From positions 1 through 64,000 of the IMG/VR virus record IMGVR_UViG_3300042566_001051: a DNA stretch of 64,000 nucleotides. One strand, written 5' to 3'. Both the position numbers and the translations under genes were made by a program. Position 1 is the first letter of the stretch. Each line of letters opens with the position of its first letter. The notes below the pieces were generated by a model, which did not search any database, was not told where the DNA came from, and was given only the letters and a program-made list of their open reading frames with translations. This DNA is from a virus. Below are positions 6,078 to 12,959 of the stretch, piece after piece.

Positions 6078-8591
6078 TCAGGCGTTACTCAGTCCGCCGG
6101 TGACGATATGAGCAATGCGGCGATCCTTCAGGTCTTGCCCGGCATCCTGCGACGGGGCTGCGACGGCGGCTGCCTTCTTCGTGTCGGCGGACGCCATTGG
6201 GACAGCAACCGTTGGCGCCTCGGCAATTGGCGGCGCTGTCGGAGCGACTGAAACCGGCGGTGCGCTTATGCTTGCGACAACAGGCGGCGCCGGCGAGGCA
6301 ATGGCGGATGATGGTGCCTGCTGTGATGCGACGGCCGTAGGCGCGGCGTCCTGACCGGCGAGCGCCAGAAGCCGATTTTTTTCTTCCACTGCGCGCTTGG
6401 CAGTTCCGGCCCTTACCCCTGCCGATGAGCTCGCAAACAGCTTGTCATTGTTCGCCACCTTGTAGTCCTGGATGGCGGAAACAATATCCGCATCGGACAT
6501 GCTGGCGGTGTCCTTGCCCTTCAGTGACTTCTCGATTAGGGATGAATTCCCTCCGAACTGAACTGACGTGCTCCATACGGCGTCCTGAACCGCCGCGCCG
6601 CGCCCGGAAAGGTCAATTCCGCCTTTCTTCAGCCGGTCGATTTGCGGGTCGTAGTGGCTGGCTTTAATGAAGTCGTGCTGGGCATTGCCGAATTCAGGAT
6701 CGGCCTTGGCGACTTCCTTCCATTTGGCGTTGAACTCAGGCGAGCCAGGCTGTAGTCCAGTGAACTGATCGCCGTATTTGCTCGACTTCAGAAATTTTTG
6801 CAGCGTTCCTTGCGTCGATGAAAGCTGATAGGTGCCATAGGATGCGCCTCCGAAGTCACCTTTCCCGCTTGACACGGTTCCGGCACCGCCTTTGCCCGAC
6901 TCGAACAACTTGCTTGTCTGGCCCAATACCCAGTTTCCGGCGGTCTTTGCGCCTTCCCACGCTTTTGCAACGCCCTTGCCGACGGTCGTGTTGTCAGCGG
7001 CCCACTCAGCGCCTTTCTTGACGCTATCGACTGCCTGCCCGCCGACCTCTACGGCCTTTGTTTTTGCTGATACAGCCGTGTCTGCGGCCCATGTTGCCGC
7101 CCTCTGTGCTCCGGCTTTTGCATCAAACCCGGTTTTGTCCTTGACGAATGAATTGGCGGCATTCGCTTTGTCTGCGGCCCAATCGACGGCTTGGCTTCCG
7201 GCATCCTTGATTCCCTTCCAGGCGTCCGACAGCTTTTCGAGCGCACCATCCCATCCCTTCTTCAGGAAGTCGGTTGTCGCTTCCCAGGCGCCAACGATCT
7301 TGCCGGGTATGTCCGCCTCACGCAGATCAGAAACCCAGCCCCCTACGGTGTCGCCGATTATCTGCCCAGCCTGGTCGCCAAAGAACATGCCGACAGCCCC
7401 GCCCAGGGCGCCGCCGATAGCAACCCCGATAGGGCCGCCGATTGCACCGGCCATTGCCCCCAGCTTGGCGCCAGCGAGCATGCCGCCGACACTACCGGCG
7501 AACCCGCCAACCGCCTTTCCTGCTTTTTCATCCTTCTGACGCCGGGTCAGCGAGTCGTCCGTTTCGCTGCTGTAAATGTCGGAGGCTGCTCCGACGCCGC
7601 CGATCAGCGCGCCAAGCAGCGGGATGCGGCGAAGCATGCCCTTGCCAGCACCAAGCAATCCTTTGCCAGCGCCCATCAAGCCCTTGCTGGCTCCACCAAG
7701 CATCCCAGCGCCGCCGGCCAGCATCGGCCCGATAACCGGGATTTTCGACAATAGGCCGGACATCATGCCAAGCAGGCCGCCGCCGTCTCCGCTGCCCTTT
7801 GCTTCCGGTTTTTCCTCAAGCAGCTTCAAGCTCTTGTTTGCCGCCTTCGAATAGGCCGTCTCTTCCTTCCTGAAGACGCTCAGGGTCGAGAAGATGCGCC
7901 GGAGAAAGCCGGTCTGCTTCTTGTCCTCACTGCCGCCGGTCAGCATTTCATAGCCGCGCGCCATCGGCTGGGCTACCTCATTGAACGCCTTGACGGCCGG
8001 GTCTGCCTCTTCCATGCCGCCGCTTGAATCGGCAACAGCGCCGACGATACGGTCAGCAATCGAGCGCAATGCGCCAGTATCGGCATCGTCCGCCGCATCA
8101 TTTGGCAGCAGCCCATCCGGGCGGCCATCGCCCTTGGTGAATCTGCCTCGCCCATCCCGTCCGGCAGGCTTTGCTACCGACTGTGGCGACTTCCGTTCCG
8201 GTCGCACCATGACGCCAGAGGCGCCAGACTTTGCCGATGTCGATGCGGCTTCATTTCCTTGCCCGCGAACCGGCGTGACAGCCTTCCGCAGCAGGGATGG
8301 AATCTCATCGCTGTAGCGGCGGGCTGGAATTGCTGACGCCGCGCGCTCTCGGCCCCTTGGTGTTGCCTTGACGGCCGGGTCTGCCTCTTCCATGCCGCCG
8401 CGAGGGGTAATAACCCTTGATGCGTCAGCGTGCTTCCCGCCACCTTTGACGGCCGCCTCGCTGGCGCCCATAACAGCCTTGCGGATTGCCCGAACATCGC
8501 TCCTGATGTCATCCCAGACCGCAAGCGCGCGGCCAATATCAATCGGGTCTCCGACAAGGAAGCCCTGCGCATCGTGCTTAAGTGCCGCCAT
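6078..8591 (-). CDS. Large tail protein with membrane-like region and C-terminal lysozyme domain (tape-measure candidate)
   Basis: The 837-aa protein has a charged N-terminal half and a long Gly/Ala-rich hydrophobic stretch (about residues 280-410, many GGxxG and AGAIGG motifs) that could insert in membranes. An Ala/Lys-rich helical part comes next. A domain at about 575-735 (GDFGGASYGTYQLSS, then QDAVWSTSVQFGG) resembles the muramidase found at the C-terminus of VgrG-3 and in phage tail lysins. No longer tape-measure gene is visible, so this is the best candidate for the tape measure as well as the tail-tip wall-degrading enzyme. Two copies of the segment GGMEEADPAVKA (near residues 70 and 195) come from a 37-bp perfect direct repeat. 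Confidence 0.6.
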   Translation of the reverse strand: MAALKHDAQGFLVGDPIDIGRALAVWDDIRSDVRAIRKAVMGASEAAVKGGGKHADASRVITPRGGMEEADPAVKATPRGRERAASAIPARRYSDEIPSLLRKAVTPVRGQGNEAASTSAKSGASGVMVRPERKSPQSVAKPAGRDGRGRFTKGDGRPDGLLPNDAADDADTGALRSIADRIVGAVADSSGGMEEADPAVKAFNEVAQPMARGYEMLTGGSEDKKQTGFLRRIFSTLSVFRKEETAYSKAANKSLKLLEEKPEAKGSGDGGGLLGMMSGLLSKIPVIGPMLAGGAGMLGGASKGLMGAGKGLLGAGKGMLRRIPLLGALIGGVGAASDIYSSETDDSLTRRQKDEKAGKAVGGFAGSVGGMLAGAKLGAMAGAIGGPIGVAIGGALGGAVGMFFGDQAGQIIGDTVGGWVSDLREADIPGKIVGAWEATTDFLKKGWDGALEKLSDAWKGIKDAGSQAVDWAADKANAANSFVKDKTGFDAKAGAQRAATWAADTAVSAKTKAVEVGGQAVDSVKKGAEWAADNTTVGKGVAKAWEGAKTAGNWVLGQTSKLFESGKGGAGTVSSGKGDFGGASYGTYQLSSTQGTLQKFLKSSKYGDQFTGLQPGSPEFNAKWKEVAKADPEFGNAQHDFIKASHYDPQIDRLKKGGIDLSGRGAAVQDAVWSTSVQFGGNSSLIEKSLKGKDTASMSDADIVSAIQDYKVANNDKLFASSSAGVRAGTAKRAVEEKNRLLALAGQDAAPTAVASQQAPSSAIASPAPPVVASISAPPVSVAPTAPPIAEAPTVAVPMASADTKKAAAVAAPSQDAGQDLKDRRIAHIVTGGLSNA
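7987..8023. repeat. 37-bp direct repeat, copy 1
   Basis: Bases 7987-8023 are identical to 8365-8401. Both copies lie inside the tail-lysozyme gene in the same reading frame, 378 bp (126 codons) apart. Confidence 0.85.
8365..8401. repeat. 37-bp direct repeat, copy 2
   Basis: Second copy of the repeat at 7987-8023. Recombination between the copies would remove exactly 126 codons in frame. Confidence 0.85.
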
Positions 8592-8595
8592 GCCG

Positions 8596-9501
8596 TTACG
8601 CCTTCATGAAAGTATCGAGTTGCGAGAACGACATCTGCACCTCCTGTAGTCCGTCCTCGCGGCGAGAAAGGCTGAATTCCAGATTCGCCGGACGGAATAA
8701 CCCGATGTCCTCGTATCCTCCGCGATTGCTGCCTCTGGTGATGAACGCATGCACGACCTTGATCGTGACGGCGTAGCTCGCCGGAACGCCGACAGTTCCG
8801 TCCCTTGCTGCTGCGGCCCCGTGGTGTGCAGCAAACCACTTCTTCAGGAAACCTGACTGGTCGTCCATCGTGGTCAGGCGCAACTCAACCGGCTCGTTTC
8901 CCTGTACGGAATCGACGACAGCCCCGCCAACCTTGCGCTTCTCGCCGGAAACGGTGAATGGGGCGTACTCAACATCGGTGGCGAACAAATTGAACCGCTG
9001 CGATACATCTCCTTGCAGCTTGCTCGATACCTCGATCAGGAATAGGTTTTTCTTGGCGAGGCGCTGCCCGCGCATGTCGTCATAGATACGCCGCGCCTCG
9101 GTCGGGCTGATGCCGCCAAAAAGCGGGGTAGAGGCGCCCCAGTACATGGTCTGCGATGCGACGCCGCTCATTCCTGGAAATAGGTTGTTCAGCATGCCGG
9201 AATCCAGAATGCGCATTCCGGCGCCCTCCCAGTTTCCATTCATGATGTCGCCAACGGCGCCGGCACCAACATTGAGCGCCCGCTGCGCTTGGATTGGGAT
9301 GTGCTTATTGACGAGGTTCATGGCGGCATTCGTCGCCATGTTTGCCCCCATGCCAGCAACCGTAGCCGCCAGCTTGCCGCCGCCAAAAGCATTGGCCGCC
9401 TTGGCCGCAACGCCGCCGACGGAGGAACTGATTCCCGAACTGATGGAGCCCATCAAGCCATTGCTGGACAGGCTTGCAGCCACGTTATTGTACAAACTCA
9501 A
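8596..9501 (-). CDS. Tail/baseplate protein, tube-initiator-like
   Basis: The 301-aa protein begins with a Gly/Ala/Ser-rich hydrophobic third. A compact C-terminal domain (about residues 150-301; FLIEVSSKLQGDVSQRFNLFATDVEYAPFTVSGEKRKV) looks like the tail-tube-type beta-barrel of gp19/gp48/gp54 proteins. I chose the TTG at 9501 over the ATG at 9528. A GGGAGG site lies 5 nt before the TTG, and the TTG overlaps the stop codon of the preceding HNH reading frame (TTGA). It sits just upstream of the tail-lysozyme gene. The role as a tube-baseplate adaptor is inferred. Confidence 0.55.
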   Translation of the reverse strand: MSLYNNVAASLSSNGLMGSISSGISSSVGGVAAKAANAFGGGKLAATVAGMGANMATNAAMNLVNKHIPIQAQRALNVGAGAVGDIMNGNWEGAGMRILDSGMLNNLFPGMSGVASQTMYWGASTPLFGGISPTEARRIYDDMRGQRLAKKNLFLIEVSSKLQGDVSQRFNLFATDVEYAPFTVSGEKRKVGGAVVDSVQGNEPVELRLTTMDDQSGFLKKWFAAHHGAAAARDGTVGVPASYAVTIKVVHAFITRGSNRGGYEDIGLFRPANLEFSLSRREDGLQEVQMSFSQLDTFMKA

Positions 9502-9936
9502 AGCAGCCTCCCATTCTCGGCGGCCCATCGCTCAGGCGGTTTTGCACCCTTCCTCAAATTGCACGTCGGGCAGAGTAGTTGCAGATTGGCCTTGTCGTTC
9601 GATCCGCCAAGCACCAGCGGCTGGATATGATCGACGTGGTAGCCATCGGCGATGCTGACGCGGCAGCAGGCGCACTTGCCGCGCTGAAGCCGGAATAGCC
9701 GCTTGATGTCGGCTGCCGTGTGCTTGCCGCCGACGCGCTTCTTCATGGCAAGTCGATTGTAGAAACTAGCCCTTCTGGCCTCTGGATTTGCTTTCGCCCA
9801 AGCAGAGGCCCTGGCATTGGTTGCCAGCTTCACCTCTGGCCGACTGTGGTATGCAAGAACCTTGGCGGCATTCTCTGGCTTCGCTCTCCATCGATTGCCG
9901 CGAGCAGCGTAGGCATCGCGGTTTCGCTTGAAATAT

Positions 9937-9961
9937 CGGCTATTCGTAAAAGCATGTGGAA
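9937..9961. repeat. Terminal inverted repeat, left end
   Basis: 25-bp terminal repeat beginning CGGCTATTCGTAAAA and ending TGTGGAA. It matches the reverse complement of 10454-10478 at 22 of 25 positions; the three mismatches are adjacent, at positions 16-18. Confidence 0.9.
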
Positions 9962-9986
9962 ACCTGCCGCCCAGTGGCGGCAGGTT
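9961..9986 (-). terminator. Strong hairpin at the end of the cargo gene
   Basis: AACCTGCCGCC and GGCGGCAGGTT form a perfect 11-bp stem with a 4-nt loop (CAGT). It lies 15 nt after the stop of the cargo gene on the - strand. The sequence after it is only moderately T-rich (TTTCCACATGCTTTT), so it may terminate or protect the transcript. It abuts the terminal inverted repeat. Confidence 0.6.
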
Positions 9987-10000
9987 GCGTGTGGAATCGT

Positions 10001-10399
10001 TCAAACCGGAACCCATTGCTCAGGGTTGATGCCAGGATTTGTCCAGCCAACCACCACGCCATCTGCGCCGACCTTGAAGATGATGTAGTCGCCGTAACCG
10101 TTATCACCGACGCACAGGAGGTCGTCAGGGACGTAATAGCCCTTCCATTTGGCGATGCGCTTCTTGGCCTCATCCAGAAGCCAGTATTCGCCGGCATCGC
10201 ATACCTTGTAGTGAATGTCAGCTTCAATGCCTTCAGGCCAATTCATGATGCGGCCCGTAGCCAGTTCGATAACCGGCTCCCACGAGGTTCCTTTTCGGCA
10301 CGGAATCAGCGTTCCGTCGCTGTCTTCCTTGCCATTTACGGTGGCGTCTTCCCAATAGCGAATGTCCGCGCCAACCTCGATGAATTTAGCTTGTTCCAC
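10001..10399 (-). CDS. Cargo protein of the insertion element, unknown function
   Basis: This 132-aa acidic protein has a compact core, KVCDAGEYWLLDEAKKRIAKWKGYYVPDDLLCVGDNGYGDYIIFKVGADG. I believe scattered homologues with the GYGDYI motif exist in proteobacteria, but I know of no function. The chosen start is GTG 10399, with AAAGGA 6 nt upstream. The frame stays open to GTG 10459 inside the terminal repeat, which would give 152 aa. It is the only gene in the element. It is not a recognisable transposase: there is no DDE or HUH motif. Confidence 0.65.
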   Translation of the reverse strand: MEQAKFIEVGADIRYWEDATVNGKEDSDGTLIPCRKGTSWEPVIELATGRIMNWPEGIEADIHYKVCDAGEYWLLDEAKKRIAKWKGYYVPDDLLCVGDNGYGDYIIFKVGADGVVVGWTNPGINPEQWVPV

Positions 10400-10453
10400 G
10401 TCAATCCTTTCCACACACTTTTGCGTTTTCTGGTTGTTGCTTGGATGGGTCAG

Positions 10454-10478
10454 TTCCACACCGTTTTACGAATAGCCG
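10454..10478. repeat. Terminal inverted repeat, right end
   Basis: Partner of the repeat at 9937-9961, followed immediately by the second AAATAT target copy (10479-10484). It contains the alternative GTG start (10459) of the cargo frame. Confidence 0.9.
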
Positions 10479-10710
10479 AAATATCCAGCCATGTGGGCGG
10501 CGTGGTGCGCCTTGTTTTCTGGCCTGGAGTAATACTCTGCCGCATAGGCTGCCGCCTTTTCCTTGGCCTCCTTGCCGCTCCGCCTGGCTTTGTTGTACTC
10601 AGACCAGCAATCTCGGCAACTGCTGCGGAGGCCGTCTTTCTTGGCCGCATCCTTGCTAAATTCAGAGCAATCCTTTTCAGCCCCGCATTTCGAGCATATT
10701 TTCAGCATGG

Positions 10711-12352: not shown

Positions 12353-12658
12353 TCAGGCGTGCGCGATTTCTGGATGCAGCTTGAGGCCCAGCGCGTGCGT
12401 TACCTTGAGAATGGTCGCAAAACTCGGATTCCCTTCGCCTGAGAGCGCCTTGTAAAGGCTTTCGCGCCCAAGGCCGGTTTCCTTGGCGAGCTGCGTCATG
12501 CCCTTGGCGCGGGCGATAGTGCCCAGCGCCTTGGCGATGAAAGCGGCATCGTCGCCAGCTTCTTCCATGCAGGCTTCAAGGTACATCACCATGTCCTCGT
12601 CGGTCTTGAGGTGCTCGGCACTATCCCATTTGCGCAGTTTCAGCGTTCCCATTTTCAT
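12353..12658 (-). CDS. higA: HigA-like antitoxin (addiction module antidote)
   Basis: The 101-aa protein matches the addiction-module antidote family. The N-terminal half (MKMGTLKLRKWDSAEHLKTDEDMVMYLEACMEEAGD) should bind the toxin. A helix-turn-helix follows at about residues 50-85 (TQLAKETGLGRESLYKALSGEGNPSFATILKVTHALGLKL). The toxin gene is immediately upstream, 3 nt away; toxin-first order is usual for HigBA. The antitoxin should neutralise the toxin and repress the shared promoter. Confidence 0.85.
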   Translation of the reverse strand: MKMGTLKLRKWDSAEHLKTDEDMVMYLEACMEEAGDDAAFIAKALGTIARAKGMTQLAKETGLGRESLYKALSGEGNPSFATILKVTHALGLKLHPEIAHA

Positions 12659-12661
12659 CTC

Positions 12662-12952
12662 CTACAGTTGCCGCGCCAGTTCAAGCGCGGTCTTGATGTC
12701 CTTCGATTGAGTGGATTTGTCGCCACCCGCCAGCAGAATCACAATCTCCATGCCGCGCTGCGCGAAATACACGCGATAACCCGGCCCGTAGTGAATACGC
12801 ATCTCCGACACTCCCTCTCCCACTGGCTCGCAATCACCGAAATTGCCATCTTCAGCCCGGTCGATGCGGGCCTGAATCCGGCGAATCGCTTGCCTGTCAC
12901 GCAGCCCGGAAAACCAATCGTCGAACGTTTCTGTGGTGTGAATGATCTTCAT
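12662..12952 (-). CDS. higB: HigB-like RelE-superfamily toxin
   Basis: The 96-aa toxin matches the phage-derived Gp49/HigB addiction killer family, with TFDDWFSGLRDRQAIRRIQARIDRAEDGNFGD, then MRIHYGPGYRVYFAQRG and LLAGGDKSTQSKDI. Members cleave mRNA, usually on the ribosome. I chose ATG 12952 rather than the longer frame to 13003, because the -10 box of the promoter overlaps the upstream ATG and places the transcript start just ahead of 12952. The module could stabilise the prophage or exclude other phages. Confidence 0.85.
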   Translation of the reverse strand: MKIIHTTETFDDWFSGLRDRQAIRRIQARIDRAEDGNFGDCEPVGEGVSEMRIHYGPGYRVYFAQRGMEIVILLAGGDKSTQSKDIKTALELARQL

Positions 12953-12959
12953 GCGTTCC

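Follow-up and report, generated by a model that had tools for sequence, protein, structure and literature searches.

A transposase-less, single-gene cassette in a phage HNH endonuclease gene with the ends of ISL3-family transposons

An HNH endonuclease gene in the 64-kb window, i.e. the whole stretch of DNA analyzed here, is split by a short segment with inverted ends and a single gene. The window belongs to a 75-kb phage record with a P1-like portal that is 68% identical to that of Xanthomonas phage Rb1. The locus raises the question of what kind of element this is, how it could move, and whether its gene or its ends define the family to which it belongs. By direct sequence reading, the element is 540 bp long (9938-10477), and the repeat GAAATATC is present as a perfect 8-bp copy on both sides (Table 1). 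The initial annotation had given a length of 542 bp and a 6-bp duplication, AAATAT, both of which result from a misregistration of 1 nt. The inverted ends that it described are present, but instead of 25 bp with 22 matches they are 24 bp long in the 8-bp register, start with GGCTATTCG and are identical over their first 14 nt. The single gene and the strong hairpin described there are both inside the element, and the hairpin is terminator-like without a clear T-run. In the window, this is the only site at which 14-nt inverted ends (up to two mismatches allowed) are flanked by an exact 8-bp repeat, and the same scan of 20 first-order random windows gave one match in total.

Table 1. Coordinates in the window of the element, its parts and the interrupted gene.
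Feature	Positions	Strand	Remark
Target duplication, left copy, GAAATATC	9930..9937		exact repeat
Target duplication, right copy, GAAATATC	10478..10485		exact repeat
Left TIR, GGCTATTCGTAAAAGCATGTGGAA	9938..9961	+	corresponds to transposase-adjacent end in autonomous relatives
Right TIR, GGCTATTCGTAAAACGGTGTGGAA	10454..10477	-	cargo-side end
Subterminal copy of TIR inner motif, CGCAAAAGTGTGTGGAA	10409..10425	-	14/17, +53 from cargo end
Partial subterminal motif, CGTGTGGAA	9988..9996	+	+51 from non-cargo end, position as in many relatives
Strong hairpin between TIR and partial repeat, 3' of cargo gene	9961..9986	-	fold z = -2.8
Cargo gene, 132 aa	10001..10399	-	probable start GTG at 10399 after AAAGGA
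HNH endonuclease gene, 5' part	10486..10708	-	
HNH endonuclease gene, 3' part with HNH domain	9498..9937	-	

Removal of the element together with one copy of the repeat restores an intact 220-codon HNH ORF, as initially claimed, and the restored protein is the same under the 6-bp and the 8-bp reading of the repeat. That the two HNH frames were once one gene is borne out by uninterrupted relatives in other viruses (e.g. L203, L204 and L219), which align on both sides of the junction with 37-41% identity; these relatives are distant, and no exact empty site was found for this phage. The HNH gene hit by the insertion was presumably dispensable. A location inside an endonuclease gene might also be expected of a selfish, homing-type insertion aimed at the HNH gene, in the manner of an intron, an intein or a nested homing gene, rather than of a transposon. 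We consider this extremely improbable because the element breaks the reading frame and has TIRs and a target duplication, and because same-type ends lie in unrelated AT-rich sites, with target duplications that are 77% AT compared to 47% in the flanks. The varied insertion sites of the cassettes L098, L426, L444 and others described below also contradict it.

A duplication of 8 bp instead of 6 bp points to the ISL3 family, of which this length is a trait. The 24-bp ends are of the ISL3 type, start with GG(C/G)T and match the ends of elements whose transposases hit DDE_Tnp_ISL3, and the subterminal copy of the TIR motif lies at the distance found in autonomous elements. ISL3 copies annotated in PMC6305408 have 8-bp repeats and ends such as GGGTATCCGGAATTTCTGGTTGAT. 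By sequence, the window element has ISL3-family features in both its 8-bp duplication and its GG(C/G)TAT-type (GG(C/G)T(A/C)T.CG) ends. In agreement with the transposase-less, TIR-bounded cassette proposed initially, which would need to be moved in trans, no ISL3 transposase domain was found in the element or in the whole 75-kb record. The element is, therefore, a derivative and not an autonomous ISL3 member, and we therefore assign it to the mobile insertion cassettes (MICs), in which a non-transposase gene lies between two inverted repeats without a nearby transposase, here with a target duplication. Thus, the window element is very likely (with a probability of roughly 0.88) a non-autonomous ISL3-family transposon of the MIC type, in which the transposase of a cargo-carrying phage ISL3 element was lost or never present.

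Several known systems share parts of this design. The ISL3 "transporter IS" ISPst2 and ISPpu12 (PMC6305408, PMC4133298) have, like the window element, 8-bp direct repeats and GGGTATCCGGAA-type 24-bp ends. Their passenger genes adjoin the transposase, and in the plasmid copies examined, the subterminal repeat is at +62 to +64. By contrast to the window element, they are plasmid-borne and combine their own transposase with resistance, metal or lipoprotein genes; about 50 relatives of the window element also hold a transposase and a passenger in one element, but these passengers are phage accessory genes, which close relatives exchange. MIC231 of Bacillus cereus (IS231) and the qnrD mic (PMC3913671) similarly have a non-transposase gene between IS-type inverted repeats and a target duplication, and they are moved in trans by the cognate transposase; however, they depend on another transposase family and reside on bacterial chromosomes or plasmids. 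MITEs and the Tn3-derived TIMEs (PMC4133298) are short and non-autonomous with inverted ends, as is the window element, but are usually gene-free, and TIMEs have Tn3-type ends.

Relatives were found by scanning viral contigs for GGCTATTCGTAAAA and keeping those matches for which a partner end and a perfect 8-bp duplication were present; other matches were treated as chance. L098, a 556-bp cassette in another viral contig, has the same ends, an 8-bp target duplication and one gene unlike the window cargo; its leader beyond the TIR is homologous to that of the window element (shuffle p<=0.0005), and the hairpin-bearing ends, in which a 3' hairpin lies between the TIR and the partial motif, are also alike (shuffle p<=0.0025). 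L132 (539 bp) holds the apparent start of an ISL3 transposase between its end and the partner end, and L109 (2,532 bp) a full ISL3 transposase (Pfam DDE_Tnp_ISL3, 4.4e-55), both with perfect 8-bp duplications. A search of viral contigs with a transposase profile gave 159 relatives, 80 of which were kept. In 51 of these 80 (49 distinct), consensus-type ends and an exact 8-bp duplication surround the transposase, the exact duplication being a requirement of the search and pairs with non-consensus ends having been discarded as noise. These autonomous relatives have same-type ends, 8-bp target duplications and ISL3 DDE, HTH and Zn-ribbon domains, and such elements are present in five cultured phages, i.e. 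the Vibrio phages Seahorse, Val-yong3 and K256, Escherichia phage Fraca and Caulobacter phage DMCA.

About 50 phage-derived ISL3 transposons have a common layout of TIR, leader, inner-motif copy at +53, cargo ORF, transposase and TIR; in the viral contigs, 0.36-3.0 kb with one or few ORFs separate one end from the transposase start. The leader is uniform and consists of the TIR, about 28 bp (often TATAAT-like), the inner-motif copy and the start codon. The inner-motif copy is at +53 in most relatives and up to +65 in others, and matches on average at 14.3 of 17 positions compared to 9.2 in shuffles; at least 12 of 17 positions match in 98% of relatives and in 1.3% of shuffles. At the transposase-side end, a full copy is found at background level and only a short GTGTGGAA-type part recurs. 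In the window element, the copy lies on the 5' side of the cargo gene as in the relatives and is followed by the Shine-Dalgarno-like stretch AAAGGA, and the cargo gene runs in the same direction as most cargo genes of autonomous elements; the TATAAT-like box is absent from its leader.

In bacteria, a pattern scan of 369 genomes of one class matched only the two already-known genomes, and an ISL3 transposase of this kind was present in 3 of 143 genomes. One bacterial genome (L275) has an 827-bp element with a HicA-HicB pair and the target duplication CAAAACTG, and Zoogloea (L276, 1052-7301) a 6,250-bp element with an ISL3 transposase and the target duplication TTTTTTTC. One-ended matches in MAGs of Poribacteria, Bacteroidetes and Mariprofundaceae (L278-L283, L285 and L287) were set aside as they have no partner end. 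As a separate observation, the 6.25-kb Zoogloea transposon also carries genes for a DUF6036 nucleotidyltransferase and a GIY-YIG protein, and a single ISL3-type end lies around position 5106 of L320 near BREX-like genes (by eye from translations), which suggests larger defence cargo on ISL3 elements in bacteria. In L284 (186-1550) and L324 (5022-6314), the ISL3 transposase has a C-terminal HNH domain (Pfam HNH 1.3e-4 in L284), and for a relative of it in Escherichia phage Fraca, the annotation likewise names an HNH protein. A gene for a small basic protein of 60-72 aa recurs in L344, L347, L364, L427, L444 and L464, beside the transposase or at the transposase-side end, and may encode a small regulator of the element.

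Do these elements move, and do they do so without a transposase of their own? The Vibrio phages K256 and K251 g2 carry an identical element of 2,484 bp that encodes a D12-type DNA methyltransferase and a transposase and is flanked by GAAAAGAG in K256 and by GAAAAAAG in K251 g2. K303, a relative of K256, has the exact empty site: its sequence contains one GAAAAGAG and matches the joined K256 flanks at 800 of 800 nt. No similarity to K303 was detected in the flanks of the K251 g2 copy. From this sequence comparison, an autonomous relative has recently moved between phages. Ten further transposase-less cassettes were found in viral contigs. Among the 20 elements with exact 8-bp duplications that were detected by scanning for CGGA(A/T)TAACGTGTGGAA, the transposase is absent from nine, complete in eight and truncated in three. 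L426 and L444 are one 760-bp transposase-less cassette, 97.6% identical, in two unrelated contigs with different target duplications and no flank similarity; their subgroup has no clear +53 repeat. This pair gives indirect support to mobilization in trans by a cognate transposase. Cargo families link the two kinds of element by sequence: the NADAR-like cargo of the transposase-less L440 is 64% identical to the cargo of the autonomous L345, and that of L437 56% to a cargo protein of the autonomous L330. Such comparisons establish movement as a unit, the length of the duplication and the kinship of the ends.

The window copy might instead be a dead remnant, i.e. an ISL3 element that was autonomous when it inserted, had its transposase removed by an internal deletion and is immobile now. 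Elements with truncated transposases do exist (L432, L434 and L189), and the window element resembles autonomous elements in the asymmetry of its two ends. However, no transposase fragment remains in the window element; given the perfect target duplication and the identity of both ends over their first 14 nt, the insertion is fairly young. Moreover, cassettes of the same build (L098, L426/L444, L437, L438, L440, L447, L456 and L464) are intact at their own target duplications, and L426/L444 documents movement without an own transposase. We therefore regard a dead remnant as unlikely.

The cargo ORF is an exchangeable slot, as comparison of close relatives demonstrates at the sequence level. 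In 15 of 16 distinct pairs of transposases that are 86-94% identical, the cargo is unrelated (transposase DNA at least 86% identical over 80% of the length; cargo compared by blastn or tblastx, E 1e-5), the 16 pairs being partly non-independent. The leaders of close relatives remain similar as far as the ribosome-binding region, and similarity returns at the transposase start codon or near it. Cargo matches in phage elements include several kinds of DNA methyltransferases, DpdA, NADAR, PAPS-reductase/SspD-like and Lar proteins as well as YopX, a Bro-N anti-repressor, DUF551 and HicAB. Plasmid members of the same clade, with the subterminal repeat at +62 to +64 where the element could be delimited, have ArsR with a permease, metallothionein, EmtA, GyrI-like and other genes in the same slot. 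Cargo thus appears to be matched to its vehicle.

The conserved unit is the ends plus the leader and not the cargo, and it is the ends that define the family, because none of 80 viral homologues of the window cargo (42-72% identity) has conserved ISL3-type ends around it and because same-type ends surround many unrelated cargo genes. In this respect, the initial idea of a family of mobile cassettes that spread among phages stands, while a conserved cargo gene as its unit does not. Cargo homologues without these ends had been named in advance as evidence against the proposal; all 80 are of this kind, which refutes the idea that the gene defines the element and leaves its mobility untouched. No autonomous element with the window cargo, and thus no direct parent of the window element, was found.

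The frame of the window cargo stays open beyond the GTG at 10399, which is the more usual and probable start, to a GTG inside the TIR at 10459 (10001-10459, minus strand, 152 aa). Because the frame is open from the TIR GTG through the repeat, 45 nt apart, in the window element, L437, L438 and L464, the element end may be translated in these elements as an N-terminal extension of the cargo (VExT...KT...VE). Homologues of the cargo are present in Pseudomonas phages, surrounded by small hypothetical genes, and on the Persicobacter plasmid pPP11 (L415, 2956-3369), with an RloB-family gene on one side, cas9 on the other and AbiEi close by. From the company that such genes keep, our guess is that the cargo functions in phage-host conflict. 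The cargo could also be a protective gene for an immunity protein of the SUKH type (SMI1/KNR4), in line with the RloB, AbiEi and cas9 genes beside the plasmid homologue and with a sub-threshold Pfam match of SMI1_KNR4 to cargo residues 93-144 (18.9 bits compared to a cut-off of 25.4). However, the confident structural model (pLDDT 96) has no PDB fold match at E < 0.001, no SUKH chain is among the best 50 listed fold matches, and the cargo has no PDB sequence match; in a viral structure library, the model retrieved one homologue and one SH3-like phage protein. A SUKH protein is, therefore, very unlikely, and the assignment to SUKH-1 was rejected.

For the non-autonomous transposon that we favor, we suggest the following model. 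An ISL3 transposase encoded elsewhere in the same cell, by an element of the host, a prophage or a co-infecting phage, would act in trans on the window copy by binding the TIR and the +53 subterminal repeat. The 540-bp DNA would be moved as a unit, leave an 8-bp AT-rich target duplication, and in this case have landed in the HNH endonuclease gene. The leader between the TIR and the cargo would supply translation signals, so that an inserted cassette could express its gene in a new genome, and is presumably used as a promoter, a -10-like box being also present in autonomous relatives; the hairpin would end the cargo transcript. Because the leader lies between two presumed transposase sites, the transposase could repress the cargo promoter. 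The cargo may be of benefit.

The entry of short accessory genes into phage genomes is mostly credited to recombination. We think it likely that phages share an ISL3 cassette system with constant ends and leader, an exchangeable slot, and autonomous carriers that move transposase-less cassettes, and that this system spreads accessory and probable counter-defence genes between unrelated phages. If so, genes for methylases, DpdA, NADAR, Lar and PAPS-reductase-like proteins would spread in this way, and "moron" genes would have a route other than homologous or illegitimate recombination; the ends, the target duplications, the exact empty site and the identical copies in unrelated phages are those of a transposon route. 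The slot gene changes faster than the transposase, and DNA modification or restriction is the target of several cargo genes, so that the elements could let phages swap counter-defence genes quickly. As single-gene cassettes are recognizable by their ends, this mobile share of the phage accessory pool is directly searchable. ISL3 elements with passenger genes have already been described from plasmids (PMC6305408, PMC4133298). In the literature of the PMC open subset, passenger genes of plasmid ISL3 elements and MICs from other families are described, but a set of phage cassettes with a cargo slot was not found there, and a phage-borne, cargo-swapping, partly transposase-less ISL3 population appears to be undescribed.

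Finally, other genes in the window merit mention. Near the portal gene, 12353-12658 and 12662-12958 (minus strand) encode a type II toxin-antitoxin pair with a TIGR02684 antidote (9.8e-40) and a TIGR02683 RelE/ParE-family toxin (7.4e-41). At 6078-8591 (minus strand), an 837-aa tail-region protein with a C-terminal T6SS VgrG3-type domain (Pfam PF21277, 8.6e-75) is probably a virion cell-wall enzyme.
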